A DNA stretch of 64,000 bases, taken from Paludibacter sp. GTDB taxonomy: Bacteria > Bacteroidota > Bacteroidia > Bacteroidales > Paludibacteraceae. Positions 17,283 through 58,437 of this stretch are shown here, piece by piece; position 1 is the first letter of the stretch, and the number at the start of each line of letters is the position of its first letter. A program made the translations under genes and the position numbers. The stretch lies in NCBI GenBank assembly GCA_031292575.1, contig JARLGX010000017.1, positions 62,001 to 126,000 of the forward strand, in the 5' to 3' direction. Below the pieces are notes generated by a model. That model was not told the origin of the DNA. It ran no database searches and saw only the letters and a program-made list of their open reading frames with translations.

Positions 17283-17293
17283 TAAAAAAGGCA

Positions 17294-18826: not shown

Positions 18827-18925
18827 TAGATAAAATATGTAAATCAGTTTAAATTAATAATATAGCGTTTGATTTAGAAAAGGTTGATGTTGTTTGGATA
18901 AGAAGGATTGTGTAATCTTGTTTTT

Positions 18926-18954
18926 GAGGGCACTTCACATTTTGAAGTGTCCTC
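18926..18954 (+). terminator. Strong hairpin after susD of PUL 1 (partial terminator)
   Basis: A 12-bp stem GAGGGCACTTCA / TGAAGTGTCCTC (one G-T pair) with a CATTT loop. The following sequence AATTATTG is a poor T tract, so it may only reduce read-through into the phosphoesterase and GH16 genes, or stabilise the susCD message. Confidence 0.55.
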
Positions 18955-19020
18955 AATTATTGAAAAATATATCCACTCATCGATGCTATTTTTATCAGTG
19001 TCAAAATAAAACAATTAAAG

Positions 19021-20469: not shown

Positions 20470-20499
20470 TTATTTTTGCAAATCATTAAAATCATAAAA

Positions 20500-34374: not shown

Positions 34375-36033
34375 CTAATAACTAAATCCTAACTTAGTCA
34401 ATCCAGCTTGTATGTAAGTATTTTGCATAAACAAGTTCCAAAGTAACCCCGTGCGGTAATTTTCAATCATGACCACGATAGGACCTTCGTCGATGGCTAA
34501 ATACGAATTTGCAAACCAACCCTGATTCAGGTTAAATGAATCGTTAAATCCGTAAGTTCCCCAAATTTTATCGCCTAATTTATAATAAAAGAAATGCAGT
34601 GCCTGCATACTTTGCGCCGGAGTATATGGAAAAGATGACAAGGCGGCGGTAGGTGCAATCACCCCAACATCGTTAGTAGGCGATGAAGCAGTGTAACTGT
34701 TTTGAATATCGCTGGCTGTTAATCCCCAGCAATTTGCACTATAACCATAATAACCTTTTGGATTTGCCACACAATAATCGTAATTAATCAGTGCATGGGC
34801 TGTGTTTTGTGTCCAGTAATTGGCGTACGAATCCGATAATTTTCGTGGGTCTAAACCCAAAAAGGAATAATGAGCAAAAAACATCGGACCGCCATAATCT
34901 GGACCCAATGGCAAAGAAACTCCATAAAAAGATTTGCCGTTTTTGATTCCTCCGTTCAGTGCCCAACCGTTGTCGTAAACGGCTTTGGTAATCGGGAAAG
35001 TAGGTGAAGAAGCCGCTAATACATAAACAATTAAAGCTTCGTCCCATCCAGAAATTTGCATATTAATTGCCCAACCATAATCGGGTGACCAATGCCAAAA
35101 AAGTTTTTGCTGCGAGTTCTGTTGAAACCAACTCCAGTCAACGTTTTCCCACAAGGTTTCAATGTTCGCGCACATGGCTTTCTCAGCTGTGTTTCCGGTT
35201 TTAAAATAAGATTGAACAGTGAGCAATCCTTCCATTAAAAAAGCTGTTTCCACCAAATCTGCTCCATCGTCTTGCGTTCCGAAAGGTATAACTTTACCGG
35301 TAGTTCCGTTCATCCAGTGTGGAAAAGCACCGTGAAACTTATCGGTATTAGGGAGACTCAGAAAGTTTACGATTTGATTCATCCGGTCAAGGCCTTGTTG
35401 GCGTGTTATAAAACCCCGTTCGATGGCAACAGGAATACCCATGATGCCAAAACCGGAACCTCCCATGGTTACTGTTTCTCCTGAATTAAGGCGCTCGCGT
35501 GCTAGACCTGATGTTGGATGTGCATAACTCCAAAAGTAATCGAATGTTCTTTTTTGTACAAGAGTTAATAAACTGTCATCAGAAATAGCCGGAAACTTGG
35601 CAGTTGTATCTAATTGAGTCATAAATTTGGAAGAAAAGCTATTATAAACAGTTCCTCCTAAATTGTTCCCTGAATCAAAATTGAAAGTATATTCAGTTAA
35701 TGATTTAGGGGAAACTGTTGTAGTTAAGAGTAAGGTTTTATTGTCAGTTCCAATGGAAGCTGTAAAATTTGCTCCAATATCCCCACTAAAAGTTACTTTC
35801 GAAGTTAAAAACTTTGATACATTTATAGAATCATCAAATACAATCTTTACTATTGGTTTTGTTGCTAAACTTATATTATAAAGCTCAGTGTTACTTACCC
35901 AATTATAATCATTGATTTGAACGCTTTGTATTCTTAAAGTACGAAGTACTGGATTTTTAGGAGTAGGTTCTTCTACTTTACATGATGTCCAAACCAATAA
36001 ACCTAAAAATAAAAAGATAATGATTTTTTTCAT
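34375..36033 (-). CDS. GH144 beta-1,2-glucanase-type lipoprotein (PUL 2, distal copy)
   Basis: A 552-residue lipoprotein with lipobox LVWTSC. Residues about 25-145 are an extra beta-sandwich domain (a Bacteroidota SGL-associated Ig-like region). Residues about 150-552 are the (alpha/alpha)6 catalytic domain formerly called putative glucoamylase: RTFDYFWSYAHPTSGLARER, GFGIMGIPVAIERGF, FPHWMNGTTGK, WSPDYGWAINMQISGWDEAL, IDEGPIVVMIENYRTGLLWNLF. As I recall, characterised GH144 enzymes include an endo-beta-1,2-glucanase (Chitinophaga) and an exo-type sophorose-releasing enzyme (Parabacteroides). Which mode this copy has is not clear. A strong hairpin ends 10 bp before its start codon. Confidence 0.9.
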   Translation of the reverse strand: MKKIIIFLFLGLLVWTSCKVEEPTPKNPVLRTLRIQSVQINDYNWVSNTELYNISLATKPIVKIVFDDSINVSKFLTSKVTFSGDIGANFTASIGTDNKTLLLTTTVSPKSLTEYTFNFDSGNNLGGTVYNSFSSKFMTQLDTTAKFPAISDDSLLTLVQKRTFDYFWSYAHPTSGLARERLNSGETVTMGGSGFGIMGIPVAIERGFITRQQGLDRMNQIVNFLSLPNTDKFHGAFPHWMNGTTGKVIPFGTQDDGADLVETAFLMEGLLTVQSYFKTGNTAEKAMCANIETLWENVDWSWFQQNSQQKLFWHWSPDYGWAINMQISGWDEALIVYVLAASSPTFPITKAVYDNGWALNGGIKNGKSFYGVSLPLGPDYGGPMFFAHYSFLGLDPRKLSDSYANYWTQNTAHALINYDYCVANPKGYYGYSANCWGLTASDIQNSYTASSPTNDVGVIAPTAALSSFPYTPAQSMQALHFFYYKLGDKIWGTYGFNDSFNLNQGWFANSYLAIDEGPIVVMIENYRTGLLWNLFMQNTYIQAGLTKLGFSY

Positions 36034-36043
36034 GATTTTGGTT

Positions 36044-36081
36044 ACTTGCAGTGTTTGAGTGAAAACTCAAAAACTGCAAGT
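36044..36081 (-). other. Strong intercistronic hairpin directly before the distal GH144 gene
   Basis: ACTTGCAGT (36044-36052) and TTTGAGT (36054-36060) pair with ACTCAAA (36065-36071) and ACTGCAAGT (36073-36081): 9 + 7 bp with one mismatch and a four-base loop. On the coding (minus) strand it ends 10 bp before the GH144 ATG and has no T tract after it. An mRNA-stabilising 3' end for the upstream GH3 message, or masking of the start region, is more likely than simple termination. Confidence 0.7.
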
Positions 36082-36134
36082 CTTTATATGGTTAATTTTA
36101 AATTAAATTACTTATATACAAAGATTAATCCACA

Positions 36135-38432
36135 TTATTTTGTCCAGTTTATTGTAGCTGTTTTTAAGTCTTTGGAGTTTCCTCCGATTTTTATTTCAAA
36201 GTCGCCACTTTCCCAATCATATTTTAAATCGTTGTTGTAAAATTTCAGATCTTCGGGTGTAATATCAAATGTAATTGTTTTGCTTTCGCCCACTTTCAAA
36301 AATACTTTTTGGAAACCTTTTAATTCTTTTACAGGCCTTGTAATGCTTCCCACCACATCACGAATATAAAGTTGTACCACTTCTGCTCCATCGTATTTCC
36401 CAGTATTTGATAGAGTTACAGATGCTTTTAGAGTTTCATTTCCGCTCAGTTGGGTTTTATTCAACCTAAAATTATCATAATTAAAAGTAGTATAGCTTAA
36501 ACCATATCCAAACGGATACAATGGGTCATTAGAAACATCGAGATAATTTGAGCGGTATTTTTTAAACCATTCCCCTTCTTTTAGTGGTCGCCCTGTATTT
36601 TTGTGGTTGTAATAAATTGGAATTTGTCCTACGTTTTGCGGAAAGGTCATAGGTAATTTTCCGGAAGGATTTACATCTCCGAAAACAACATCGGCAACAG
36701 CATTTCCCGATTGCGAACCTCCAAACCAAACATTCAGAATTGCAGGGATATTTTCATTTTCCCAATTAATTGTGAGTGGGCGACCTGTGAAAAGAACCAT
36801 CACCACAGGTTTTCCTGTTTTAATTAAGTCTTTCAAAAATGCTTCTTGATTTCCGGGGAGTGAAATATCTGAGCGGCTTGAACATTCGCCGGACATTTCA
36901 GCACCTTCACCCATAACGGCAATAACCACGTCACTTTTTTTTGCAATTTTCAATGCTTCGTTTTTCAATTGCTCAGGAGTTTTTGTAGAGTCAATAGAAG
37001 TTCCATCCCAATGTGTCCATTTGTCTAAATTTTTATCTTCTACCATATTGCATCCTTTAGCAAATTGGATTTTGGCATCTTTTCCCAAATAGTTTTTGAA
37101 CCCTTGCAATACAGTTACCGATTTAGAACGATCAGCTCCTACAGCCCAGGTTCCTACCATATCGTATTTTGAATCTGCCAATGGGCCAACTATAGCATAT
37201 TTCAGATTCTTCTTCAATGGCAGAAGTTGGTTTTGATTTTTTAGAAGTACAAACGTTTGAGATGCAATTTCACGAGCCACTTTCATATGCTCAGGAGTTC
37301 CAAGTTCGGTTTTGGCACGCTTCACATCACAGTATTTATACGGATCATCAAAAAGTCCTAAATCGTATTTTGCCTCTAAAATTCTACGACAAGCCTGATT
37401 GATTTCTTCTTCCGTAACTTTTCCTTCCTGTAACGATTTTTTTAATGTAGTCAGAAAGGTTTCACCCACCATATCCATATCAATTCCTGCGTGAAGTGCT
37501 AGAGCTGCAACGGTTTGTTTATCACCCAATCCGTGCTGAACTAATTCTTCAATAGCCGTAAAATCAGTTACAACAAAACCTTTAAATCCCCACTGATTGC
37601 GAAGTAAATCGGTCATCAACCAACGATTAGCAGTTGCCGGAAGACCATTTATATCATTAAAAGAACTCATTGCACTTCCTGCTCCGGCGTCAAAAGCTGC
37701 TTTGTAAGGTGGCAGATATTCGTTGTACATTCTGTTCAAACTCATATCGGTACTATTGTAATCGCGTCCTGCTTCTGCAGCTCCATACAGCGCAAAATGC
37801 TTCACACAAGCCATGATAGTATTATTTTTCGTCAAATCATCGCCTTGATAACCACGTACGTAAGCTTCTGCTGCTTTGGAACCTAAAAACACATCTTCAC
37901 CCGAACTTTCAGCAACTCGCCCCCAACGAGGATCGCGTGAAATATCTACCATTGGAGAATATGTCCAGCAGATTCCATCTGCACTTGCTTCTTGCGCTGA
38001 AATTCGAGCCATTTTTTCAATTAGACCCATATCCCAACTGCTAGCTAATGCAAGTGGAATAGGAAACGTTGTTTTATATCCGTGAATTACGTCCATTCCA
38101 AAAATCAATGGAATTTTCAATCTGCTTTTAGTTACAGCAACTTCTTGAACAGCTTTAATCCTTTCTGCTGAATCTAAATTTAAAATTCCACCCACTTTTC
38201 CATCTATAATTTTTTGTCCGATATCACTACTAGTTGCTTCGCCGGTATGAATATATCCTGCCGTTGCGAGATTCAATTGTCCAATTTTTTCATCAATAGT
38301 CATTTTCGACATTAAATCGTTGATAAATGCTTCTTTTGCTGCAACTTTAGTCGTTGATAATTTTTGTTGCGACTGTGTTTGTAAGTTGAAAATAAGCAGT
38401 ACAAACAGTAAAGTTCTGAATTTCTTACACAT
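36135..38432 (-). CDS. GH3 beta-glucosidase, periplasmic (PUL 2)
   Basis: A 765-residue exported GH3 enzyme (signal peptide ends near residue 22, TQSQQ). The (beta/alpha)8 domain carries the catalytic nucleophile Asp in GFKGFVVTDFTAI near residue 288, and the substrate-binding DPRWGRVAESSGED and VKHFALYGAAEAGRD. The alpha/beta sandwich (VVMVLFTGRPLTI) and C-terminal Fn3-like domain (VVQLYIRDVVGSITRPVKELKG) follow. This is the BglX-like layout. In this GH144 locus its probable job is to remove glucose from sophorose and short beta-1,2-glucans, as reported for the Bacteroides thetaiotaomicron GH3 enzyme I know as BT_3567. Linkage specificity is inferred from context. Confidence 0.92.
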   Translation of the reverse strand: MCKKFRTLLFVLLIFNLQTQSQQKLSTTKVAAKEAFINDLMSKMTIDEKIGQLNLATAGYIHTGEATSSDIGQKIIDGKVGGILNLDSAERIKAVQEVAVTKSRLKIPLIFGMDVIHGYKTTFPIPLALASSWDMGLIEKMARISAQEASADGICWTYSPMVDISRDPRWGRVAESSGEDVFLGSKAAEAYVRGYQGDDLTKNNTIMACVKHFALYGAAEAGRDYNSTDMSLNRMYNEYLPPYKAAFDAGAGSAMSSFNDINGLPATANRWLMTDLLRNQWGFKGFVVTDFTAIEELVQHGLGDKQTVAALALHAGIDMDMVGETFLTTLKKSLQEGKVTEEEINQACRRILEAKYDLGLFDDPYKYCDVKRAKTELGTPEHMKVAREIASQTFVLLKNQNQLLPLKKNLKYAIVGPLADSKYDMVGTWAVGADRSKSVTVLQGFKNYLGKDAKIQFAKGCNMVEDKNLDKWTHWDGTSIDSTKTPEQLKNEALKIAKKSDVVIAVMGEGAEMSGECSSRSDISLPGNQEAFLKDLIKTGKPVVMVLFTGRPLTINWENENIPAILNVWFGGSQSGNAVADVVFGDVNPSGKLPMTFPQNVGQIPIYYNHKNTGRPLKEGEWFKKYRSNYLDVSNDPLYPFGYGLSYTTFNYDNFRLNKTQLSGNETLKASVTLSNTGKYDGAEVVQLYIRDVVGSITRPVKELKGFQKVFLKVGESKTITFDITPEDLKFYNNDLKYDWESGDFEIKIGGNSKDLKTATINWTK

Positions 38433-38448
38433 TTTATTAATATTTTTG

Positions 38449-41739: not shown

Positions 41740-41750
41740 CGCTGTAATTT

Positions 41751-44177: not shown

Positions 44178-44206
44178 AAATCTCGTCTATAATTTATATA
44201 ACTTTA

Positions 44207-46243: not shown

Positions 46244-46299
46244 TTTTTTGGATATTTGTTTTCAAGTATTATTGGAAATCTGCGTTAAGAATTAAAGTG

Positions 46300-49200
46300 C
46301 TAATAATCTATCACTACGTTTGCAGGCGATAGCATTATTTGAATGTATTTATCTGTAAATGTTTTTATTTCTTTTCCGTTTACTGTAACTTTCTTAGGCA
46401 TTTTTGAATCATTGAAATTTTGAATTTTAATGCCGTTTGCAGGTAATTTCAAATCTCCTGAAATATTGAAATGATAACTGTTTCCATCCTTTTTAATGCT
46501 GTATGAAACCTCTCCATAATAAGTTGGCAAATGGTTTACCGACATTCCTTCCGGTGCGTCAATCCAGTCCTGATACAATGCTGAAGCTAAAACCAACGAA
46601 GCATCGTATTCATTTTCATACACAAACATAGTGCGGATGGCATTAACAAAGTCTGAACCTACCCATGTATGAGGCATATCGCCAATATAACCAGGATATC
46701 TGTAATCTTTCCATACCACTTCGGCCCAGTGATTCCACGCTTGCGGACGCTGGTCGTGAAGGAAATATGCAATCAAATCGTGCGCTCTTTCTGGTTCGTT
46801 CAAAATTATAAATGAACCGATTACACGGTTTTCATACGGAGTGTAATTTACCCAGTTGATAGTATTATTTTTACGTTTAGTGAAATAATCGTAATACTTA
46901 TCAAATGTATTGAGAATCTGAGGTTTAGGAAGATTTATAAATTCATTGCAGGGAGTTAATGAAATAGTAGTTGAAGTTGCGTCAAAATCACCTAATTCAG
47001 CACAGCCGGGAATGTAATTTATCCCTTTGTTTTTCATTGCCAGATTGATGGAATTGTACAGATTTTTAGTAAACGTATCACGAATATCACCAATGCGCTT
47101 TTCTTCTGCCGTATTTCCCAAAATATGCTGAATATCTGTAGCATCTTTCAATCCTTTGATGGTAAAGAAATCATCCCAATAAGAATGCATAGGCTTTGCA
47201 GAATATCCTTCGTGACTAATGGATTCAGGTACTAAACCATATTGCGCTTTAAGACTATCGTTTCCATTTTTGAATTTATCAGTGCTACATTCAGCAATCA
47301 TTTTTTCAATATAACTTACATCCAACAAAATTTTATCGTTCTTGCTTTTCAGAAAATCAATATCTTTTGTAAAGTTGTAATACTCTCTGATTGCGTAGAT
47401 AAATTCGCCTTCACTGTCGTTTTCAGGAACCGGATCGGGACCGCGTTTGTCAACCACGCAAGGTACTTTTCCGTTTTCATACAAATAATTAGCATACCAA
47501 TTGAGATAATCTTTCACTTCAGGTACGATTCCGTTTTTTAACAATGCAGATGAAGTCAACGCACCATCGCGAATCCAACTACGCTCATAACTTCTCGATC
47601 CGGGTTGAAATCCGGCATTATCTCTGTTTATTAGAATATAAACCAATTGAGATTTATAGGTATCAATCATTTTATCAGCAGAAGCTGGCAAGTTAAATTC
47701 AACATGGTTGATTTTCTGCGACCAAAAATTCACTGCTTCATCAAATTCTTTAGAAACAGCATCATTTGTAATTTGTGCAGAACTGGATTTCGTATTATAG
47801 TAAGGAGATTTTACAAACATTACTTTTGTTTCGTTAGGTTGCAAAGTCATGGCATATCGCAAAACACCTGTTGATAAACTTGAAGCATCGGTAACTGAAG
47901 TTTCACGGTTGAATTTTTGTTTTTTCAAAAGTGAAACTACATCACCATCGATCATGCTGTAAGTAGATAAATTCTGATAAGGTAGAGTGGAATAGATTGT
48001 TTTTCCATCTACATCAACAGATTTATTATCAACACCTTGAATGTTTTTAATTTTACCAACTCCACCTTCTAAATTCAAAAACTGATAATATGGATTTACC
48101 TGATATGGTCGTAAAAGCACTAAAAAATCAAAGTTTTGGGCTTGTGACGTAGTATTTATAAAAGTATATTTGATGTAAAGATTTGAACTTTTATTTGCTT
48201 CACCACCAGAAGTTACTTCAGTAGCAAAGTTCAAATTATCCATTTTCCATTTCACACCCGGAACAAACTGAAAATCTTGTGGTTTAGTGGATTTTCCCAT
48301 TGTTTGAGATACTTCCACATTGCTCCAGTTATACAATTTTCCGTTTTGCATAATCATTGGTTCCAACGAAAACGCTCCTTTTTCGGCTTCCACCATTCCG
48401 TTTTCGCTTAAAAGACCTTCCTGAACATCATTATTCATACCTGTAATGGTGAAAAACGATGCTTGTTTGAGGAAATAACTTGGATAATCGCCTTTTTCGG
48501 AATTCAGTGCATTGTAAATCATGAATTTATTTCGTCCGTCAACATCATTTGCCTCAATAAATTTAAGTTCAGTTATACCAAAAACATTATTGTTTGATTG
48601 ATTTAAATCAATTCGTATGTATCTCGGTTCGGCATCTTCAAAAGGGATGATGTTGTTCTGGTTGTCATTTTTTGTATTGACAAAAACGTTTTCCCATGTT
48701 TTTCCATCATCAGATAATGCAATGGCAAAATTCGATGCAAACTGGTCTTTAGTCCATTCTATATTCAATCCGCCAATTTCTCTTTTTTGTTTTAAATCGA
48801 TAAGAATTGATTGTTTTTTGCAGTTCTTTGAAGTCCAAAAAGTTTCCGATTTTCTATCAAACATTGCATCGGCACTTGTTTTCATTTTAGGAATAAATGT
48901 AACCGAAGGCTGAGGATAATTTGCAGTTTCGGATGGAAGTTGCTCAAATTTCAAATCGTCAACCCATATCGTGCCTTTTCCACCAACCATAGAAGCGATG
49001 GTAAATTCAATACGGTCAATTCTTGGAGGTTTTGGACTGGGATTTGGTCCCCAGGCGAATTCTAAATTTCTTTTTTTGATTTTGATTTTTTTCCATTCGG
49101 TAGGAAAATTAAAATTTCGGTGGTTTACAAACCAAACATTATCGCCTGACGCATCAATTACTTTGAATTCGAAATTATTTGATGGAGAATTGGCTTTCAT

Positions 49201-49482
49201 CCAAAACGTAATTTCGTAATTATCGGGAAGATTCAATGGGAAAAGCTTTTGAAATCCACTATATCCGGTACCTTTTGTAAAATCATAATCCAACCGGATG
49301 GCTGTTCCGGTATGTCCTTGATCTGTTGAAATGTTCATTTTCACATCGCCACCTTCAGATTTTATATATTGCCAACCGTCGGTGGAATTAAAATCGTCAA
49401 GTACGGTCATTTGAGCGGAAACGAGATTACTAATTAATAAACTAATTATCAGCAATATAATAGACTTAAAAAATGTTTTCAT
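46300..49482 (-). CDS. Multidomain secreted protein: CBM-like + discoidin (F5/8C) + six-hairpin glycosidase-like domain, family not assigned (PUL 2)
   Basis: A 1060-residue exported protein. The signal peptide ends near SAQ (residue 24). Residues about 26-180 are a CBM11/CIA30-like jelly roll (VLDDFNSTDGWQYIKSEGG, EITFWMKANSPSNNFEF, IWVDDLKFEQLP). Residues about 195-310 are an F5/8 type C domain (MFDRKSETFWTSKNC, GGLNIEWTKDQ, EPRYIRIDLNQ). Residues about 320-600 are a beta-sandwich. Residues about 610-1000 look like an (alpha/alpha)6 catalytic barrel with GSRSYERSWIRDGALTSSALL, DSEGEFIYAIREYYNF, MHSYWDDFFTIKGL and WVNYTPYENRVIGSFI. I cannot assign it to a named GH family. Position between GH144 and the symporter suggests action on the imported polymer or its branches. 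Confidence 0.72.
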   Translation of the reverse strand: MKTFFKSIILLIISLLISNLVSAQMTVLDDFNSTDGWQYIKSEGGDVKMNISTDQGHTGTAIRLDYDFTKGTGYSGFQKLFPLNLPDNYEITFWMKANSPSNNFEFKVIDASGDNVWFVNHRNFNFPTEWKKIKIKKRNLEFAWGPNPSPKPPRIDRIEFTIASMVGGKGTIWVDDLKFEQLPSETANYPQPSVTFIPKMKTSADAMFDRKSETFWTSKNCKKQSILIDLKQKREIGGLNIEWTKDQFASNFAIALSDDGKTWENVFVNTKNDNQNNIIPFEDAEPRYIRIDLNQSNNNVFGITELKFIEANDVDGRNKFMIYNALNSEKGDYPSYFLKQASFFTITGMNNDVQEGLLSENGMVEAEKGAFSLEPMIMQNGKLYNWSNVEVSQTMGKSTKPQDFQFVPGVKWKMDNLNFATEVTSGGEANKSSNLYIKYTFINTTSQAQNFDFLVLLRPYQVNPYYQFLNLEGGVGKIKNIQGVDNKSVDVDGKTIYSTLPYQNLSTYSMIDGDVVSLLKKQKFNRETSVTDASSLSTGVLRYAMTLQPNETKVMFVKSPYYNTKSSSAQITNDAVSKEFDEAVNFWSQKINHVEFNLPASADKMIDTYKSQLVYILINRDNAGFQPGSRSYERSWIRDGALTSSALLKNGIVPEVKDYLNWYANYLYENGKVPCVVDKRGPDPVPENDSEGEFIYAIREYYNFTKDIDFLKSKNDKILLDVSYIEKMIAECSTDKFKNGNDSLKAQYGLVPESISHEGYSAKPMHSYWDDFFTIKGLKDATDIQHILGNTAEEKRIGDIRDTFTKNLYNSINLAMKNKGINYIPGCAELGDFDATSTTISLTPCNEFINLPKPQILNTFDKYYDYFTKRKNNTINWVNYTPYENRVIGSFIILNEPERAHDLIAYFLHDQRPQAWNHWAEVVWKDYRYPGYIGDMPHTWVGSDFVNAIRTMFVYENEYDASLVLASALYQDWIDAPEGMSVNHLPTYYGEVSYSIKKDGNSYHFNISGDLKLPANGIKIQNFNDSKMPKKVTVNGKEIKTFTDKYIQIMLSPANVVIDY

Positions 49483-49534
49483 CCTTTGAATTTTATTTAT
49501 ATTTAATCAAATTTTCAATAAAACTTTTGTCTTT

Positions 49535-50935
49535 CTACTTTTTAATATATTCAAAATTAAGTCGTTGTAATCCTTTTTGAATAATTGGATCTTTCATCAT
49601 ATATTTCCAGATTAATCCGGAGCGGAAATTTTCAATCATTAAGATGGTAGGTCCCTGGTCGATACCTACAAAATCATTATCAACCCAATTGGCTGTTTGA
49701 TTGAATGAGTCGTAAAAACCATATTTTCCCCAAAGTTTGCTTCCCATTTTAGATTGAATATTCTTAATGGTTTTTAACGATAAATCGGGAGTAAAAGGTA
49801 ACGAACAAATAGATCCATAGATACCAATTGTACCATCCTCAGCCACTACATCGTCTTTACCGGTAGCACCTCTGCCAGCATAACCTTCAAATTTTTTATC
49901 TCCGGAATTATAGTTTGGTCCGGGCCCATCGGTTGCAGTAAACCCCCAAGTTAAAGAATCATATCCTACCCATCCTTTTGGATTTTCGATGGCATATTGT
50001 TGCTGTGCAAGCGTTGCCCGGCGGGAATTTTCAAAATATGAAATCCCTTTTTCTTTAAGATATTTATCGGCAAGTCCGCGGAAATCAATAAAGATTTCAG
50101 AGAACTGATGCCCGAAAAGTGGAGGAAATGCCACGTGAGAAAGACCTGGATAAGGTGTTTTCCATTCATAACCTTTCAACCAGGCGTTGTAATGTTGAAT
50201 AGGATTGTCGATGCCTGTTCCTGCTGCTAAAACGTACAAAAATAAACCTTCGGTATAGCCGTGCCATCCCCAGTTTGTAGTCCCTTTTTCGGGATGCCAG
50301 GCCATAGAAATGGTGTAAGGTTGCTTTGAATTAGCATCCATATTGAATACAGTCCAGTCCATACTGCTTAACAATATACCGGCATATTCCCTGATTTCTT
50401 TTTCAGCTTGATTATTTTTATTGTAATAATTTCTTGCGAAAATAACACCCATCATCAAAATTCCGGTATCTATTGATGACAATTCTACCCACGAATCCAC
50501 ACGATTTCCTTCGTCAATATCCAGAAAATGGTAATAAAATCCTTTGTAACTTCTTCGTGAATTATTTTCGGATGTTGCAAAAAATTTCAAAATTTTTAAT
50601 GTTCTGTCTACTGCCTCATTCCGGGTTATCCATTTTCTTTCAGCTGCAATGGCATAAGTTGGTAAACCAAAACCCGTTGCCGCAATACTTGCAAATGCAC
50701 CTTTTGCAGCTCTGTCTTTTATAATTCCGATTTCTGGATTATTTTCGTGTAAAAAATATTCAAACGTTTTGCGTTGAATAGAATCTAACATTAACTCATC
50801 CGATTTTGACAAATTATAGTCAATTTTTCCTTTATACACATATTTACTTGCATTTTTTAGCGCATTACAGTTCGAAAAAGTAAATATCAACAAGCAGGCG
50901 ACAATGATGCTGTGTATTAAAAATTTGTTTTTCAT
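49535..50935 (-). CDS. GH144 beta-1,2-glucanase-type lipoprotein (PUL 2, proximal copy)
   Basis: A 466-residue lipoprotein (lipobox TFSNC, Cys near residue 23) consisting almost only of the GH144 (alpha/alpha)6 domain: DSIQRKTFEYFLHENNPE, GFGLPTYAIAAERKW, SWVELSSIDTGILMMGVIFA, WGWHGYTEGLFLYVLAAGTG, WGKYGFYDSFNQTANW, IDQGPTILMIENFRSGLIW. It lacks the extra N-terminal domain of the distal copy and is close to the length of the characterised stand-alone enzymes. Two divergent GH144 proteins in one locus suggest an endo/exo division of labour. It is 24 bp from the GH43-like gene. Confidence 0.9.
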   Translation of the reverse strand: MKNKFLIHSIIVACLLIFTFSNCNALKNASKYVYKGKIDYNLSKSDELMLDSIQRKTFEYFLHENNPEIGIIKDRAAKGAFASIAATGFGLPTYAIAAERKWITRNEAVDRTLKILKFFATSENNSRRSYKGFYYHFLDIDEGNRVDSWVELSSIDTGILMMGVIFARNYYNKNNQAEKEIREYAGILLSSMDWTVFNMDANSKQPYTISMAWHPEKGTTNWGWHGYTEGLFLYVLAAGTGIDNPIQHYNAWLKGYEWKTPYPGLSHVAFPPLFGHQFSEIFIDFRGLADKYLKEKGISYFENSRRATLAQQQYAIENPKGWVGYDSLTWGFTATDGPGPNYNSGDKKFEGYAGRGATGKDDVVAEDGTIGIYGSICSLPFTPDLSLKTIKNIQSKMGSKLWGKYGFYDSFNQTANWVDNDFVGIDQGPTILMIENFRSGLIWKYMMKDPIIQKGLQRLNFEYIKK

Positions 50936-50959
50936 ATATTATTATTGATTATATGTCTG

Positions 50960-53041
50960 TTATTTCACAAAAATTGGTTTCGATTTTTCAGAAATACCGG
51001 TTTCGCTTAACGATTGAATTGAAAAAAAATATTGTGTATTTTTATCCAATCCACGCATAGTGTATTTTGTATCTTTGTAAACGGTAATGCAATTGTACAT
51101 TTTATCGGGAGCAATTCCGTAGTAAATATTGTATCCATAGCAATCTTTCTGCAGTTTCCACGAAATCATAGCGTTTCGTTCATCGTTTTTTTCTCTATCA
51201 ATTTTTAATTTTTCGGCAGGGTGTGGCAAGGCTCCATTCGCTTTTCCAAATACTCTGAAATCCATCAATGCAAAGTTTCCACTTGCCGTATGAATATTTT
51301 CAATTTTCAAATAGCGGGTTTGGATTGGTTGCAATAGTTCTACGTAATCATGAGGTACATCCTGATCATTATCGCTTTTATCTACTAACAATTCCCAGTT
51401 GATACCGTCGGTAGAGCTGTAAATTTTGTATTGATGATACATGTCCATGGCTTTTCCAAACTGATTGGCCTTATGCTCGTAATAATTTACCTGAATGGCA
51501 TTCACTTGTTTTATATTGTCCAAATCCATGGCAAACCATTCACCAGCTCGTCCGGATTTTGCAGCCCAATATGTACGCATGTTTTCATCTGAACCATTTT
51601 CTGGAGTAAAAATGCTATCGGACGAAGATGCCCATGTTTTTTTGTTTAATGACAACAGCATCCAACCTGTAAAATTCCCTTTCTGGTGGTCTTCGGTGCT
51701 TTGAGGAATAGTTGTCGGATAATCACCAAAGGCTGTATTTGAATACATCACTCCATCTTTGTCAAATCCTGCCGGATAAAGCCCGATTCTTCTTTCGAAA
51801 GTCTCACGCAACGAAAGCATACAGGTAGAAATATGCCAGTAATTGTTGAAATTATCTTTAAATGTTCCACCATGTCCGGCTCCTTGTACAAACCCACCCG
51901 GTTTATAAGAAAAAGGATTATGTTGTTGATAAACAAACGGACCGAATGGATTATCCGCCACATAGACACCATCTGCATACACTTTGAATTCTGTTCCTGG
52001 TGCACCGTATTGCAGATAATATTTATTATCGTGTTTCGTCATGTAAGCTCCTTCAATGAAAGGTTTCAATGAAACCGAATCGTCGTTATTCATTCCAAAC
52101 CGTTCCCAACCATGTATTTCAGGTTTCAGCCCAAATAAATCGTGAACAACGCTTTTTGGACGAAAAGTAGAACGGTCGTATTCGGCCACTTTGATTGGAA
52201 ATTCATTGCTCGAGCCGTAATAAAGATAAAGTCGTCCATCATCGTTCAAAAATAAATCCGGATCCCAATGTGGCAATATAGCTGTTTCGGTTAGTCTTTT
52301 CCAACGCCCCTCTTTTGGATTGGTAGTGTACCAAACCGGCAATTCTTTATAAGTAGAACCAATCATAATGATGGTGTCGCCCGATACTTCTACGGCCGGA
52401 GCACATTGATCGTCGTCGGTTGGTTTGCGTTGAAATCCGCTAAAAACGTATTTCCATTTCGAAAGATCTTTCGAAACATAAAAACCATCCTGATTGGTAC
52501 AGAAAAGGTAGTATTCGCCTTTGTATGGAACAATCAGCGGATCGGCTGTAGACCGGCAGGATATTTTATTTTCCTTGTTGTAGGGCTCAAAGTTATAATC
52601 AATATTTATTGGATTGCAATAAGTCTTTGGATGATCGTTTTTAGGATCGAACCATTTAGTTTTTTGAGCTGTGTGTTTAGGTAATGAGTGATCAGAAAGG
52701 TCTTTTTTCAATGTGCAATTAATCCTTAAGTTTTGTATGCTAAGGGGTACCTCTGTAATGGTCATTCCAGGATAATAAAACCACAATGCTTTATCATTTG
52801 AACCTATAGTTATGGTATATTCTCCCTTCAAATTAGTAGTTCCTGAGCCCACGCCATCTTTTATCATCACTTTTACCTGACTAATGGGTTTTCCCTGCTC
52901 ATCCGAAACGATTCCGCTAACCTGATAGGTTTTTTCGGTTGAAACGTTGTATTCAGTTATTTGACCTTTTACTATCTTTGATTGAGCAAAAAATGACATA
53001 AATATTGAAAGACTACAGATAATTGTCAATATTTTTTTCAT
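50960..53041 (-). CDS. GH43-like five-bladed propeller enzyme with CarboxypepD_reg-like, discoidin and Fn3 domains (PUL 2)
   Basis: A 693-residue exported protein. After the signal peptide (MSFFAQS) a CarboxypepD_reg-like domain spans about 38-110 (YQVSGIVSDEQGKPISQVKV). A GH43-type five-bladed propeller spans about 150-450, with candidate catalytic acids in STADPLIVPYKGEYYLF (Asp), HWDPDLFLNDDGRLYLYYG (Asp) and LKPFIEGAYMTKHDNKYYL (Glu). A discoidin domain lies at about 470-600 (RAGEWFAMDLDNIKQVNAIQV, TRYLKIENIHTASGN) and Fn3 at about 615-690. GH43 enzymes usually act on arabinosides, xylosides or galactosides, which is unexpected in a beta-1,2-glucan locus. It is the first gene after the susD terminator. 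Confidence 0.82.
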   Translation of the reverse strand: MKKILTIICSLSIFMSFFAQSKIVKGQITEYNVSTEKTYQVSGIVSDEQGKPISQVKVMIKDGVGSGTTNLKGEYTITIGSNDKALWFYYPGMTITEVPLSIQNLRINCTLKKDLSDHSLPKHTAQKTKWFDPKNDHPKTYCNPINIDYNFEPYNKENKISCRSTADPLIVPYKGEYYLFCTNQDGFYVSKDLSKWKYVFSGFQRKPTDDDQCAPAVEVSGDTIIMIGSTYKELPVWYTTNPKEGRWKRLTETAILPHWDPDLFLNDDGRLYLYYGSSNEFPIKVAEYDRSTFRPKSVVHDLFGLKPEIHGWERFGMNNDDSVSLKPFIEGAYMTKHDNKYYLQYGAPGTEFKVYADGVYVADNPFGPFVYQQHNPFSYKPGGFVQGAGHGGTFKDNFNNYWHISTCMLSLRETFERRIGLYPAGFDKDGVMYSNTAFGDYPTTIPQSTEDHQKGNFTGWMLLSLNKKTWASSSDSIFTPENGSDENMRTYWAAKSGRAGEWFAMDLDNIKQVNAIQVNYYEHKANQFGKAMDMYHQYKIYSSTDGINWELLVDKSDNDQDVPHDYVELLQPIQTRYLKIENIHTASGNFALMDFRVFGKANGALPHPAEKLKIDREKNDERNAMISWKLQKDCYGYNIYYGIAPDKMYNCITVYKDTKYTMRGLDKNTQYFFSIQSLSETGISEKSKPIFVK

Positions 53042-53126
53042 TAGTTTATTTTTTAAATATTTGATAATTAGAGTAATTTATAATGGGATTTCAAATTTAT
53101 AAGGCTAAGTAGTTTCTAAAGGTAAA

Positions 53127-53156
53127 AAAAGGGGAAGTATAAAACCCTCCCCTTTT
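53127..53156 (-). terminator. Terminator/attenuator between susD and the enzyme genes of PUL 2
   Basis: On the minus strand AAAAGGGGA pairs with TCCCCTTTT (9 bp) and is followed by further Ts (CTTTTTTTACC). A TAAATTTG box at 53092-53099 lies between this terminator and the GH43-like start, so the enzyme genes may have partial independent expression. Such hairpins explain the common excess of susCD transcript over enzyme transcript. Confidence 0.75.
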
Positions 53157-53172
53157 CAATTAAATGGTTATT

Positions 53173-54705
53173 TTATTTGCCTAAGTTTGTGTTTAAATCA
53201 ATTTGAGTCTGTGGAATAGGAATGTATTCACTTGTTCCTACAACAAATCCTGAAAGCGTAGTAGCAGCTTGTCCTGTACGAATCAAATCATTGAAACGAT
53301 CGCCCCACCATTCGCAAGCAAACTCAGCTCTACGTTCGTCGAGTACATTTTGCAAAGTGGCTCCAGTTATAGAGGCTAATTTTGCACGATTACGAACAAG
53401 ATTGAATGGAGTATCTCCACTTTGCCCTTTACGTACTTTTGCTTCAGCATTTAACAATAAGGCATCTGCATAGCGAAGTATCCGAATATTGTTGTTTTCA
53501 CCGTAGTCAGTCCTGCCTGCTGTCATTTGCGAAGATGGAAGATAAGCTTTTCCATTGAAGTATTTCACTCCATCAGAATTTGCCCAAATAGTATCGTTAC
53601 TAGGTGTGACGGCATATTTATTGGTTCCTTTGGTTTTTGTATCAGTGAACAAAACTGTAGTCTTTAATCTGACAGAATCATTACGAGAATTCAGATAATC
53701 AACAATAGTCTGAGAAGGTGTCATAAAACCCCAACCAGAAATAGGACTACCATGTTGATCACCACGTGGACCCTGAAATGCCCAAAAAGCATCTGGTTCA
53801 ACGATGTCTCCTGAACTTGTTCCAAAATCGGTAAACTGAAGTTCAAAAAGTGATTCATTACACATTTTGCCTGGCTTTTTGAACAGTTGATAATAATCGG
53901 GATAAAGAGAGAATTTACCACTATTGATGATTTGGTCAGTTGCAGAAATAACTTGATCCCAATATGTACTTGTATTGTCACTTCCAGCTAAATCAGCACA
54001 GATTTTGGCTTTTAACATTAATGCAGAATACTTAGTAACTGCCCCAACATGAATTGATTGATTTGGTCGTGCATCTTCCAGATTGGCAATACAGAAATCC
54101 ATTTCGCTATTAATAAATGCTCTAACATCTGCCACAGGACTTTTGCCAATTGTTCGAATAGTTGAATTATCAGTTAAAATTGGAATATTTCCAAATACGC
54201 GTGCAAGCATTAAATGAGCAAATGATCTCAAAAAGCGAAGTTCAGCCTTGTACTGTAGATTCAGTTTTAAGTTAGTAGCATCAGTTGAAGGAATATTAGC
54301 TGCAAACTTGTCCAATTCAGCCAACGCACTGTTTGCATCGATAATCATACCGTAATAATCATTCCAGCAGTTATTTGTTCCCCAAAAGCTTTGTATAGAG
54401 GCATAATTATAATGGAATAACTTAATATCGGTCAATTGAGATTGATCACTGGCTGAAGAACCCTTATCTAAATCGTCGCCGCGGACGCCTCTGATACCAT
54501 AGTCCATCCAATGGACTAACCCCGGATTAGCACTTTCGGCAATCCGATATACTCCTGATACAGGTGCATACATATTACTGAGTTGAGTATAATTAATTGC
54601 TGAAGAAGGGATAGTGTTTTCAGGGAGTTTGTTCAAAAAATCAGAACAACTGCTAACTGTAAAGGAGATTAGCAGTATTAATGGAATATATTTTAATCGT
54701 TTCAT
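53173..54705 (-). CDS. SusD/RagB-family outer-membrane lipoprotein (PUL 2)
   Basis: A 510-residue glycan-binding lipoprotein. The lipobox TVSSC puts the lipidated Cys near residue 20, followed by SDFLNKLPENTIPSSA. SusD-type TPR segments appear (YKAELRFLRSFAHLMLARVFGNIP and YSALMLKAKICADLAG). The C-terminal RagB/SusD domain includes NNIRILRYADALLLNAEAKVRKGQ and LDERRAEFACEWWGDRFNDLIRTG. This is the classic PF07980/PF14322 type, unlike the PF12771 type in PUL 1. It follows susC by 21 bp and precedes a terminator. Confidence 0.95.
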   Translation of the reverse strand: MKRLKYIPLILLISFTVSSCSDFLNKLPENTIPSSAINYTQLSNMYAPVSGVYRIAESANPGLVHWMDYGIRGVRGDDLDKGSSASDQSQLTDIKLFHYNYASIQSFWGTNNCWNDYYGMIIDANSALAELDKFAANIPSTDATNLKLNLQYKAELRFLRSFAHLMLARVFGNIPILTDNSTIRTIGKSPVADVRAFINSEMDFCIANLEDARPNQSIHVGAVTKYSALMLKAKICADLAGSDNTSTYWDQVISATDQIINSGKFSLYPDYYQLFKKPGKMCNESLFELQFTDFGTSSGDIVEPDAFWAFQGPRGDQHGSPISGWGFMTPSQTIVDYLNSRNDSVRLKTTVLFTDTKTKGTNKYAVTPSNDTIWANSDGVKYFNGKAYLPSSQMTAGRTDYGENNNIRILRYADALLLNAEAKVRKGQSGDTPFNLVRNRAKLASITGATLQNVLDERRAEFACEWWGDRFNDLIRTGQAATTLSGFVVGTSEYIPIPQTQIDLNTNLGK

Positions 54706-54726
54706 AATAATTTTATTTTTTATGGA

Positions 54727-57700
54727 TTAATAACTAATTCTGCAACCAATGCTGTAAGTAGCCGATGTTGGATATACATTGTTGTCATATCCTGTATTGC
54801 TCAGGTCAGTAGTTGCACCGCCTATTTCAGGTGTAAAGCCACTATATTTGGTAAAGATAAGCGGACGGTCAGCTGTTACGAAAATACGCATAAATGGAGC
54901 ATTAGCAGTCTTAGCAAGCTTAAATGAATAGGCAAGTTGGATGTTTTGAATTCGCATATAAGAACCATCTTCTACGAAGAAAGAGCTTGCCATGTTGTTC
55001 CAGCCTTTTGTAGTACCTAATGCCGAAGGATATTCATTTGTTGAGCCTGCGCCAGTCCACAAATGTGTAATCATTTGGGCATCTCCGTTCATGTCGCTAT
55101 ACCAAAGGCGACGGGCACGATTCATATTCAAAATTTTATTTCCACCTTGTCCCTGGAACATTACATTAAGTTCCAGTTTTTTATAGTTTAATCCAACGTT
55201 AAACCCATAAGTTACTGTAGGTAAATAATTGCCTAAAATTACTCTATCTTTAGAGTCGAGCACTTTATCCCCATTTTGATCTTTGTATTTAAAATCGCCC
55301 GGAACCAAGCCATTGGCTACAGCTATTGGGTCAGCATTAATCTCAGCTTGTGTTTGATAAACGCCAGCTACCTGATATCCATAAAAAGAATTTACGGGTT
55401 GACCAACTTGCATTATAGTTGGGAATTCAGAAATACCTGTCATTTTATAAGCTAACCCTCCCAGATTATCTACTTTGTTTTTCAATGTTGAGATATTTCC
55501 ACCAATGGTGTAACCTATTTCACCAATTTTATCTGACCAATTAAGAGTAAGTTCTAATCCCTGGTTAGTAACTTTGCCATAATTACCTAACATATCAGGG
55601 TTACCCATTGGTTGCGGTGCCATAAAAACTAAGTTATTAGTTTGGCGGTTGTAATAGTCGATAGAACCGTTTAACCGCTGTTTCAACAATGAAAAGTCAA
55701 AACCTCCATCCCATTCATTAACAACTTCCCATTTCAAATAACTGAATAAATTTACGTTTGTGTAACCCGGAACATAAGCTCCTGCTGAAGATGAAGTACT
55801 TCCGAAAATTCCAGAAGCTGGATCTCCTGTTTTTATAAAGCTAAATCCGTTATTGGCAGGGACAGCATCATTTCCCAACATACCCCAACTTAAGCGGGCC
55901 TTTAAATAATCGAACAGGTGTTGATCCTTCATAAATCCTTCTTCACTCAGTACCCAACCGGCACCTACGGATGGGAAATAACCCCATTTTTGTTGATATT
56001 TTGAGCTCCCATCTGCTCTGAATGTAGCCGTTAACAGGTATTTTGAAGCAAAGTCATAAGTGGCTCTTCCAAAGAATGATAAACCATGATAATCGGTTCC
56101 ATTTTCTAAAACCTGACTCGCAACGGGATGTCCATTGCTAACGTACAAATATTCTTCTTGAAATCCTGCACCATTAAAGTTTAAGTTGGTTGCCGTTGCT
56201 TTAAGTTGCCTCCAGCTTTCATTTCTGGTTGATTGTCCAATCATAGCTGACCAATGGTGGTTACCAATACCATCTTTGTAGGTTAAAGTATTATCAACAA
56301 TATAGTTTTGATATTTTTCCTGATAGCTGGTTAATGAATTTAATTGATTAGGAGACAATTGAAATGCATCTACGTAATATGCAGGAGTATAATTCAAATC
56401 TTGATTAACAGTATATTTCTGACTATATTGAGTTTTAAACAATAATTTGTCTTTCCACAACTTAATTTCAGCAAAAACAGTAGGAGATATTTGAACTCCA
56501 TTTGTCTTGTCATAATAGTATTGTGCGGCCGCTACAGGATTTGCAAACGCTCCATTAGAAAACCCAATGCTGGTTGAAGATGCATAATCTGTTGGTGTAG
56601 CATTTGTATTAGTTGCATCAAACACTGGATACAATGGCGAAGCATAGTATGCATTTGCGAATGCTGTTTTATTTGGTGAAAATAATGTAGAATTCGAAAC
56701 CAAAATCTTATAACCTATTTTCAACCAATCGTAGGCTTGAAAATCGGTTTGTGCAAGTAAATTAAAACGCGAGTAATTATTTTGGGCTTTCATAATACCG
56801 TCCTGGTATAGATAACTCAGTGCAACATTATAAGTCGCTTTTTCACTACCACCAGAAATACCAATACTGTGGCTATGTGTCAATGCAGATTGGTTCAACA
56901 ACTCGTTGTACCAATTTGTGTTAGTTGTAGGATTAGTACCGCTACCACCAAATTTTTGAGATGAAAGAGTGACATGGGCTAAATCAGAAGTTGTACCTTT
57001 TGCTATTTCCATAGCTGCGTATTCACTTCCACTGGCCATTTTTAGCATATTAACCGGAGTTTGAAATCCTACATAACCATCATAGGTAATTTGAGTTTTG
57101 GAATTTAGTTTACCTTTTTTTGTTGTAATTAATACAACTCCGTTTGCGGCACGCACGCCATAAATGGCTGCAGCTGAGGCATCTTTCAAAATGGTCATTT
57201 CTGCAATATCATTTGTGTTCAAAAAATCGATATTATCGAAAAACATACCATCAACCACATATAACGGGTTTTCATTGTTAAGCGAACCTACACCACGAAT
57301 ATGAACGGTTGGACTTGAACCAGGCGAACCATTTGTGACTACCTGAACTCCAGCTACACTACCTTGTAAGGATCCCATAGCAGATCCGGTTGTGCGCCTT
57401 TGCAAATCTTCTGTCTTGACAACAGAGATTGGAGCTGTTAAATCTTTGACCTTACTTGTGCCATAACCAACAACTACCACTTCATCCAATGCTTGGTTTT
57501 CTTCTTCCAATTGAATTTTTAGCGGAGAATTGCTGTTAGCTTTAATTTCCTGTGAAACATATCCAACATAGGATACCACTAAAACTGAATTTTGAGGTAC
57601 CGTAATGGAAAATTCACCGTTGGAATTTGTTGTTGTTCCGTTCGTCGCTGCTCCTTTTTGAACAACGGTTGAACCAATTAATGCCTCCCCTGTTTTTTTA

Positions 57701-57795
57701 TCGACGATCACTCCTTGCACCTGAATATTTTGGGCAAAAAGTGAACCTGCACTCATAAGTGCAACCAATAGGAGTAAAATGCTTTTTTTTCTCAT
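54727..57795 (-). CDS. SusC/RagA-family TonB-dependent transporter (PUL 2)
   Basis: A 1022-residue outer-membrane transporter. The signal peptide ends near SLFAQ (residue 22). A CarboxypepD_reg-like domain spans about 26-100 (VQGVIVDKKTGEALIGSTVV). The conserved DEVVVVGYGTSKVKDLTAPIS leads into the plug (GSVAGVQVVTNGSPGSSPTVHIRGVGSL, PLYVVDGMF, ILKDASAAAIYGVRAANGVVLITTKKG), and the barrel ends GCRISY. It has no STN domain, so unlike the PUL 1 transporter it is not set up for sigma/anti-sigma signalling. It lies 35 bp downstream of the GH144 remnant. Confidence 0.95.
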   Translation of the reverse strand: MRKKSILLLLVALMSAGSLFAQNIQVQGVIVDKKTGEALIGSTVVQKGAATNGTTTNSNGEFSITVPQNSVLVVSYVGYVSQEIKANSNSPLKIQLEEENQALDEVVVVGYGTSKVKDLTAPISVVKTEDLQRRTTGSAMGSLQGSVAGVQVVTNGSPGSSPTVHIRGVGSLNNENPLYVVDGMFFDNIDFLNTNDIAEMTILKDASAAAIYGVRAANGVVLITTKKGKLNSKTQITYDGYVGFQTPVNMLKMASGSEYAAMEIAKGTTSDLAHVTLSSQKFGGSGTNPTTNTNWYNELLNQSALTHSHSIGISGGSEKATYNVALSYLYQDGIMKAQNNYSRFNLLAQTDFQAYDWLKIGYKILVSNSTLFSPNKTAFANAYYASPLYPVFDATNTNATPTDYASSTSIGFSNGAFANPVAAAQYYYDKTNGVQISPTVFAEIKLWKDKLLFKTQYSQKYTVNQDLNYTPAYYVDAFQLSPNQLNSLTSYQEKYQNYIVDNTLTYKDGIGNHHWSAMIGQSTRNESWRQLKATATNLNFNGAGFQEEYLYVSNGHPVASQVLENGTDYHGLSFFGRATYDFASKYLLTATFRADGSSKYQQKWGYFPSVGAGWVLSEEGFMKDQHLFDYLKARLSWGMLGNDAVPANNGFSFIKTGDPASGIFGSTSSSAGAYVPGYTNVNLFSYLKWEVVNEWDGGFDFSLLKQRLNGSIDYYNRQTNNLVFMAPQPMGNPDMLGNYGKVTNQGLELTLNWSDKIGEIGYTIGGNISTLKNKVDNLGGLAYKMTGISEFPTIMQVGQPVNSFYGYQVAGVYQTQAEINADPIAVANGLVPGDFKYKDQNGDKVLDSKDRVILGNYLPTVTYGFNVGLNYKKLELNVMFQGQGGNKILNMNRARRLWYSDMNGDAQMITHLWTGAGSTNEYPSALGTTKGWNNMASSFFVEDGSYMRIQNIQLAYSFKLAKTANAPFMRIFVTADRPLIFTKYSGFTPEIGGATTDLSNTGYDNNVYPTSATYSIGCRISY

Positions 57796-57829
57796 GGTTT
57801 TTTTAAATTTAAATGGTTAGTAAATTTAT

Positions 57830-57960
57830 TTAGTTGATTTTAAATCCTAATTTTTGTAATCTTGCTCGGGTGAATTTTGGGATTACTCACAAATATTGAA
57901 CGCATCGTAGAAGCCATATTTCTCAAAAAAATGTTTCAGTATAAACTCTTTGTACTCCAA
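57830..57960 (-). pseudogene. Remnant of a GH144 gene (C-terminal pieces, frameshifted)
   Basis: Translating the minus strand in changing frames gives FILKHFFEKYGFYDAFN, matching WGKYGFYDSFNQT of the intact GH144. After a stop, and after loss of the middle part, it gives FTRARLQKLGFKIN and a stop at 57830, matching the GH144 C-terminal tail (QKGLQRLNFEYIKK in the intact copy). At least one frameshift and one large internal deletion are visible. Confidence 0.8.
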
Positions 57961-57979
57961 TTAATAAGCAAACACATAG

Positions 57980-58368
57980 CCACAAGGCCGATTCCCCCAA
58001 TGAAATCAGGAGAATCGTTTGTGCCATTGAACAACTTCATAACCAAACAACAACGAAATGTTTAACTTTAATTTTTCGACAGCAATTTTTTGTAGTTTGC
58101 CGGTATAAGCTGTCGTATATGCATTAAATGTATTTTCGGAATTTCCTTTTCGGATTTTATATATGTAACCTTTTTCGAGTGCTGGATTGGTTACAGCCCA
58201 ATTGGTGGTATAAAGAAGTATTTGACCGATTTTTTCGTTCAAAGTCATCAACTTCATTTTTAAATCAACTTTTTGATTGATTCTATTTTCATTTGAAATC
58301 GGTGACGAATGTTTACATGCGGTAAGTATAGTTATAGCCGCCATAATCATTACAATAAATCTTTTCAT
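57980..58368 (-). pseudogene. Remnant of a GH3 beta-glucosidase gene (N-terminal part)
   Basis: From the ATG at 58368 the frame encodes a lipoprotein signal (MKRFIVMIMAAITILTACK) and GH3 N-terminal motifs: LMTLNEKIGQILL, NTFNAYTTAYTGKLQKIAV and LNISLLFGYEVVQ. It reaches a stop at 58006. In the next frame the alignment continues with TILLISLGESALW, matching the TIFPISLGES-type stretch of GH3 enzymes, and then homology ends. The intact GH3 in this locus reads MSKMTIDEKIGQL and IPLIFGMDVIHG at the same places. The start and signal sequence are intact, so a short peptide could still be made. Confidence 0.85.
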
Positions 58369-58405
58369 AACGTGTGATTCTTTATCCATAAAAAAGTTAA
58401 CGACG

Positions 58406-58437
58406 CAAAGTAACGCCACTATTTTATTTAAAACAAA
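58406..58437 (-). promoter_or_regulatory. Bacteroidota promoter upstream of PUL 2
   Basis: Minus strand: TTTG (complement of 58434-58437), exactly 20 bp, then TTACTTTG (complement of 58406-58413). It has the same boxes and spacing as the acyl-CoA ligase promoter at 4542-4573. The GH3 remnant begins about 30 bp after the predicted start site, so this promoter transcribes the remnants as a leader of about 600 bases before susC. Confidence 0.65.

Follow-up and report, generated by a model that had tools for sequence, protein, structure and literature searches.

Bacterial beta-1,2-glucans serve as factors in symbiosis, virulence and osmoregulation (PMC12102758). In Ignavibacterium album, one cluster combines two GH144 proteins, a GH94 protein and the GH35 beta-1,2-glucosyltransferase IaSGT, and its speculated route runs from surface cleavage through import, with a TonB-dependent transporter, to transfer in the cytoplasm (PMC8861115). 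In Listeria innocua, Lin1839-1841 encode a 1,2-beta-oligoglucan phosphorylase (SOGP) together with a GH3 beta-glucosidase (PMC12369401). The pathway idea is thus already known from these two clusters. The recycling of beta-1,2-glucans is nevertheless little known, and here we describe a ten-gene operon that offers a compact, testable pathway, found in a 64,000-nucleotide stretch of a Paludibacter sp. contig (the window). Its new element is a conserved secreted protein of 1,060 residues, tied to the beta-1,2-glucan module and given the working name X1060.

Judged from the sequence, we put the probability at about 0.85 that these genes form an operon of the SusC/SusD type for the use of beta-1,2-glucan from other bacteria, by the route proposed below and with X1060 as an active glycosidase. 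The genes lie on the minus strand at 34375-57795, separated by 11-131 bases (101, 16, 11, 29, 56, 52, 24, 131 and 21, by position), and are transcribed in the order SusC, SusD, GH43-type protein, GH144b, X1060, GPH symporter, GH35, GH94, GH3 and GH144a. Adjacent susC and susD genes with carbohydrate-active enzyme genes on the same strand make this a polysaccharide utilization locus. The first-pass annotation of this DNA had listed two GH144 proteins, GH3, GH94, GH35 and a GPH symporter with susC/susD on one strand, all of which are present, and had thought the system to look complete, which goes further than the sequence shows; it had missed the GH43-type protein and X1060.

The I. album cluster differs in its ABC transporter and in its GH94 protein, described as a homologue of the cyclic glucan synthase C-terminal domain; its description names no X1060-like protein in the passages available, which disagree on whether the cluster holds a GH3 gene (PMC8861115). 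The window, unlike that cluster, has SusC/SusD, a GPH symporter, a SOGP-type GH94 and GH3. The L. innocua cluster also differs by an ABC transporter, and no GH144, GH35 or X1060 is named in the available part of its description (PMC12369401). Literature searches, mostly at title level and with supplements and preprints outside their scope, found no paper on a SusC/SusD/GPH version with X1060 and no recognized X1060-like protein; the available part of a 2025 review of beta-1,2-glucan-degrading enzymes names none of this kind (PMC11842490). X1060 is the sole constant member of the pathway for which we found no characterized relative.

The enzyme assignments point to the beta-1,2 linkage (Table 1). 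The GH94 protein carries the SOGP_N, SOGP_2nd and SOGP_4th domains and the GH94 barrel, all well above the Pfam cut-offs, and LpSOGP (5h3z) aligns over residues 5-1086, while the next chain reaches only E 4e-12; the first-pass assignment of this roughly 1,100-residue protein to the 1,2-beta-oligoglucan phosphorylase type is thereby supported, with 5h3z as the best match among solved structures along almost the whole chain. For GH35, the best solved match is IaSGT (7vkw), and the next GH35 group follows at E 6e-67. The subsite -1 and catalytic residues of IaSGT are Y52, E102, N175, E176, N275, E343 and Y378, and its +1 residue R349 is not conserved in many homologues (PMC8861115). In a pairwise alignment the GH35 protein of the window is identical at all eight positions, and together with its IaSGT-type closest matches this led us to reject a beta-galactosidase.

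Both GH144 proteins score far above the PF10091 gathering score of 27 (251.9 and 223.6 bits). GH144a matches the endo-beta-1,2-glucanase CpSGL (5gzh), whose E211 aligns with E332, this glutamate being the only residue that the clan check covers here. GH144b matches XcSGL (XCC2207), whose E239, F286 and Y367 correspond to E229, F274 and Y352; these are positions 225, 272 and 353 of the 8xul chain by an inferred numbering offset of 14, with Gln at 225, presumably a mutant. Both match described enzymes (PMC12102758) and keep the clan residues where checked. The match to XCC2207 had raised the suspicion of a GH192-194 member, which was ruled out because XCC2207 is XcSGL and belongs to GH144 (PMC12102758). 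With the SOGP domains, the IaSGT residues and the GH144 clan residues, the beta-1,2-glucan direction of the first-pass annotation holds at the sequence level.

GH3 passes the BglX equivalog model NF011678 (943.9 bits against a cut-off of 666), and the GH43-type protein has a candidate triad of D167, D260 or D262, and E330, placed from motif positions by the GH43 pattern. The symporter stays below the TIGR00792 cut-off (166.4 against 231.35 bits) and passes that of the broader Pfam model MFS_2 (PF13347). It contains a hydrophilic insertion of about 195 residues between its last two membrane segments (404-430 and 625-657 by hydropathy), which standard MFS topology puts on the periplasmic side. 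The corresponding open reading frames (ORFs) of 15 module relatives have 596-725 residues, while the frames of the other two strong MFS_2 proteins in the window's genome are 484 and 507 residues long. Neither a third PF10091 protein, for example a cyclic glucan synthase, nor any match to MdoG/OpgG is present in this genome, which fits a consumer of beta-1,2-glucan.

X1060 was then searched for in an order-level set of 295 genomes that contains the window's own. It was matched in 33; 16 of these, again counting the window's, have it at full length with 52-100% identity, and the others have short or weak partial matches. In each of the 15 other full-length genomes, X1060 directly follows a GH144 gene and is itself followed by the GPH symporter with no recognized gene between them, G271 having one small unmatched ORF at this point. 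GH35 comes next in 14 of them and lies about 14 kb further on in G046, GH94 is found within the examined stretch in 13 (outside it in G075 and G046), and SusC/SusD in 11. From public sequences, where at least 562 X1060 relatives were confirmed among at least 595 pattern matches, we took the best 80, ranked by closeness; all are titled as metagenome-assembled genomes (MAGs), and the set shares some contigs with the order relatives. By title, these best 80 include Bacteroidetes, Ignavibacteria, Calditrichia and KSB1 records, with MAGs under the titles Ignavibacterium or Ignavibacteria carrying X1060 relatives next to GH144, and the closest (82-83% identical) are in MAGs titled Paludibacter, Porphyromonas or Bacteroidetes. 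GH144 is present in 73 of these 80 loci and in all 52 with at least 15 kb of sequence; GH144, GH94 or GH35 is present in 76, the four others being L064, L121 and L136 (4.1-6.4 kb) and L129 (14.7 kb).

Since the best 80 were ranked by closeness, we added a sample of 395 genomes drawn evenly from the phylum, in which X1060 was matched in 34, 20 of them full length (own included). All 19 relatives have GH144 ORFs in the examined stretch; 11 have a GH94 ORF at 20-24% identity, one has a GH35 match, and none matches the SusC, SusD or GPH symporter of the window there. Ten ORFs from three of these loci were compared with Pfam: G313 encodes a GH94 protein that lacks SOGP domains, along with the binding protein, permease and ATPase of an ABC system; G356 has a TonB-dependent receptor; and a GH2-like protein of about 690 residues occurs in all three (G313, G310 and G356). 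GH144 is thus always near X1060 in this sample while SusC/SusD and the symporter are absent, which indicates that GH144 and X1060 stay together as the rest of the pathway changes. The GH2-like protein lies beside GH144 and X1060 (L178 1205-3286, L197 8716-10779, L175 2235-4313), with no GH35 match there, and may be a functional replacement of GH35 or GH3.

Across the order sample, X1060 co-occurs almost one to one with the GH144b, GH35 and GH94 types. The GH35 type (E <= 1e-60) is found in 17 of the 295 genomes and the SOGP type (E <= 1e-60) in 19, each including all 16 with X1060; the GH144b type (at least 57% identity) is found in 15, all with X1060, and any GH144 domain in 71, among them the 16 with X1060. 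The p values of Fisher tests with X1060, which ignore the kinship of the genomes, are 2e-25 for GH35, 9e-24 for SOGP, 3e-24 for GH144b and 3e-11 for any GH144. Forms of GH144b 57-62% identical to the one in the window occur only with X1060, and the other matches (E <= 1e-60) reach at most 43%. Pairwise distances of X1060 correlate with those of GH94 (r 0.93), GH35 (0.89), GH144b (0.78) and the symporter (0.69), and only 0.38 with SusC, after dropping G145 and GH144b matches below 54% identity; with G145 included, which mixes GH144 paralogues, the value for GH144b is 0.15. The module is patchy, since X1060, GH144, GH35 and SOGP are all missing from three further genomes in the family to which the window belongs. 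PF10091 also matches frames of 2,867-2,912 residues in five order genomes (G080, G133, G138, G222 and G247), the size of cyclic beta-1,2-glucan synthases, and G138 has the X1060 module as well.

We then considered what kind of protein X1060 may be. At full length, only F5/8C models pass their Pfam cut-offs, a CBM11-like domain stays below, and the C-terminal region of about 750 residues (310-1060) has no Pfam or NCBIfam model above cut-off. Weak matches to six-hairpin models were surveyed in 57 sequences (that of the window and 56 relatives, the relatives judged by E value). The NCBIfam oligosaccharide amylase model TIGR01577 matches 56 of 57 (best 1.3e-12), the trehalase model TreH1 55 (best 2.5e-7), Bac_rhamnosid6H 28 (best 1.5e-7) and the GH15 model PF00723 35 at E <= 1 (best 0.0011). 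PF00723 has no match to X1060 of the window at E <= 1, and the GH94 model PF17167 has none at E <= 1 in any of the 57.

The AlphaFold prediction from 72 sequences (pLDDT 93.5, pTM 0.93) gives X1060 a supersandwich and (alpha/alpha)6 barrel of the GH15/GH94 type; a full-length prediction with 16 sequences reached pLDDT 65.5 and was not used. This is the catalytic architecture of GH15, GH94, GH65 and GH116, to which X1060 is only 9-13% identical in the top 50 Foldseek rows, with no family cut-off reached. Foldseek places GH94 phosphorylases first (TMq up to 0.62) and GH15 close behind; cyclic glucan synthase appears at rank 14 through its GH94 domain (TMq 0.60). VIA-align places first the dextran dextrinase 9ju0, a GH15 enzyme (Z 30.6, root-mean-square deviation (rmsd) 3.7, 556 residues aligned), followed by chains labelled only 'Glycosidase' (5z3c, Z 29.0), the glucoamylase 1lf6 (Z 28.1, rmsd 3.8, 542 aligned), GH116 beta-glucosidases (Z 28) and the GH65 alpha-1,2-glucosidase 7fe3 (Z 27.9, rmsd 4.5, 553 aligned); GH116, bacterial glucoamylase and GH65 are all within 3 Z units of the top. 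The fold predicted in common with these families shows no function for X1060. The GH94 and GH116 matches, and the small share of relatives that have GH3, would suit an exo beta-glucosidase or sophorose-releasing hydrolase on a GH94-like frame, standing in where GH3 is absent. We regard this role as possible though unlikely, since the profiles favor a GH15 type, both in TIGR01577 and in hhalign, where GH15 has a probability of 92 (E 6e-7), GH94 without SOGP domains 43 and SOGP 13, and since the operon of the window has X1060 and GH3 together. Homology of X1060 to SOGP, at that probability of 13, was not used.

The hhalign comparison also aligns the invariant R638 and D639 in the SWIRDG motif of X1060 with the GH15 motif WIRDA of the -1 subsite, which binds the -1 glucose, so that the W-x-R-D pattern is shared. 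In residues 310-1060, 31 Asp, Glu, His and Arg residues are kept in at least 97% of the 72 sequences (37-83% identical), most of them in the barrel. This conservation speaks against a non-catalytic glycan-binding protein with a retained glycosidase frame, which we find very improbable, even though enzyme families with lost activity exist and X1060 has F5/8C and CBM11-like domains. By analogy with GH15, the candidate acid is E758, which falls in the loop joining the helices of model residues 399-422 and 459-479, and the candidate base is E921 or D935, before the helix at model residues 630-644. A phosphorylase is unlikely since X1060 is secreted. The most likely reading of X1060 is that of a secreted glycosidase with catalytic activity, from an unassigned family with distant kinship to GH15, which would act on a part of natural beta-1,2-glucans left by GH144 and GH3.

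A narrower proposal is motivated by two points, that GH15 relatives act on alpha-linkages and that an alpha-1,6-cyclized beta-1,2-glucan exists. X1060 might then be an inverting alpha-glucosidase of a new GH family near GH15, a constant beta-1,2-glucan partner in Bacteroidota, Ignavibacteria and Calditrichia (by title), that opens alpha-1,6-cyclized beta-1,2-glucan (the Xanthomonas glucohexadecaose is one example) or, alternatively, removes an alpha-linked residue left after GH144 cutting; we hold this as a whole to be doubtful. The alpha-1,6-cyclized natural glucan resists exo beta-glucosidase (PMC11228985), and our literature searches found no degrading enzyme for either of these two proposed steps. 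X1060 makes the opening of cyclic or branched natural beta-1,2-glucans a directly testable question. A viral fold library gave six matches to X1060 at E <= 0.001, most of them GH65, GH95 or glucoamylase-like proteins of giant viruses, and no lead. Relatives of X1060 only about 20% identical (G535, G349, G543, G022 and G136), with no GH144 in the DNA examined, were treated as a different family; such proteins of about 700-960 residues without a GH144 match (L225 7728-9854, L226 8434-11316, L204-L206) are possibly a second six-hairpin group.

Several observations weigh against the use of beta-1,2-glucan by this operon with X1060 as an enzyme. The catalytic residues of X1060 are candidates only, and G145 has X1060 beside a different GH144. 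In seven of the 80 public loci GH144 is missing from the available DNA, including L129, which at 14.7 kb is just under the 15-kb limit. Three order genomes have SOGP without X1060: G210, with GH3, G251, at a contig end, and G222, where GH94 and GH35 fill a 5.5 kb contig. Neither GH3 (5 of 15 order relatives, 19 of 52 public loci) nor GH43 (2 of 15 and 2 of 52, in overlapping sets) belongs to the core. The recurrence of GH43, inside the operon here, would agree with another or mixed target, for example an arabino- or galacto-decorated beta-glucan debranched by GH43 and GH35, with X1060 serving a decoration. We consider this improbable, since GH35 has the IaSGT residues and its closest solved matches are the beta-1,2-glucosyltransferase and not galactosidases, and since most related loci lack GH43 while GH144, GH35, GH94 and X1060 stay together. 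The first-pass annotation had also noted that the operon combines hydrolytic (GH3) and phosphorolytic (GH94) ends; both are present, but GH3 lies outside the conserved core and the pairing has already been published for Listeria innocua, a Gram-positive bacterium.

From the gene content, the domain and residue matches and the strict gene linkage, all observed, we infer the following locations, transport order and activities for beta-1,2-glucan use. Signal-peptide-like and lipobox-like stretches were read by eye from the N-termini, the former in X1060, GH3 and GH43 and the latter in GH144a, GH144b and SusD, and no signal peptide was seen by eye in GH94 and GH35. The lipoprotein GH144a would cut the polymer at the cell surface, SusC/SusD would import the pieces, and periplasmic trimming would fall to GH144b, X1060 and optionally GH3. 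From there the GPH symporter would move oligosaccharides into the cytoplasm, where SOGP would release glucose 1-phosphate and the IaSGT-type GH35 would use sophorose as glucosyl donor.

Table 1 Features of the beta-1,2-glucan operon and its surroundings in the window (aa, amino acids).
Feature	Position	Strand	Evidence
SusC-type TonB-dependent transporter, 1022 aa	54727-57795	-	TIGR04056 816.6 bits, cut-off 368
SusD-type lipoprotein, 510 aa	53173-54705	-	PF07980 4.5e-23
GH43-type protein with CarboxypepD_reg, F5/8C and fn3 domains, 693 aa; accessory	50960-53041	-	PF04616 2.5e-21
GH144b, XcSGL-like, 466 aa, lipobox-like N-terminus	49535-50935	-	PF10091 2.9e-66; 8xul/XCC2207 E 1e-102
X1060, CBM11-like (below cut-off), F5/8C, predicted supersandwich/(alpha/alpha)6 barrel	46300-49482	-	Pfam, fold, neighborhood
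GPH/MFS symporter, 678 aa	44207-46243	-	PF13347 2.6e-67
GH35, IaSGT-type beta-1,2-glucosyltransferase, 808 aa	41751-44177	-	7vkw E 1.1e-153; catalytic E175/E345, R351
GH94, SOGP-type, 1,096 aa	38449-41739	-	PF21958, PF21250, PF21270, PF17167; 5h3z E 3.7e-179; GGGDWND at 737
GH3, BglX-type beta-glucosidase, 765 aa, signal-peptide-like N-terminus	36135-38432	-	NF011678; relatives include 5xxl
GH144a, CpSGL-like, 552 aa, lipobox-like N-terminus	34375-36033	-	PF10091 6.2e-75; 5gzh E 4e-143
Decayed GH3 N-terminal fragment, upstream of susC	58006-58419	-	34% over 80 aa to operon GH3, E 5e-9
Likely cognate regulator, propeller and Y_Y_Y, 954 aa	60959-63823	-	PF07495, PF07494

The likely regulator is separated from the operon by an MFS transporter and an NlpC/P60 gene, and its relatives (32-36% identical) lie just upstream of susC in 7 of the 15 related loci. 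All 11 relatives with SusC/SusD have an ORF of 289-430 residues (two in G158) between susD and GH144a, where a polysaccharide utilization locus may encode a separate surface glycan-binding lipoprotein, and in the window the position after susD is taken by the GH43 protein. The first-pass annotation had drawn its limit at 58437, which encloses the operon, but the stretch beyond 57795 adds only the decayed GH3 fragment, which has no Pfam match at E <= 0.001. A possible GH144 C-terminal remnant after it (short motif FFEKYGFYDAFN) was too weak to claim at E 0.02. The decayed GH3 and the short GH144-like motif just upstream of susC (57796-58419) look like the remains of an earlier pair of enzymes. 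Elsewhere in the window, the plus strand at 13806-21267 carries a further SusC/SusD pair, together with genes for a calcineurin-like phosphoesterase and a GH16 protein.

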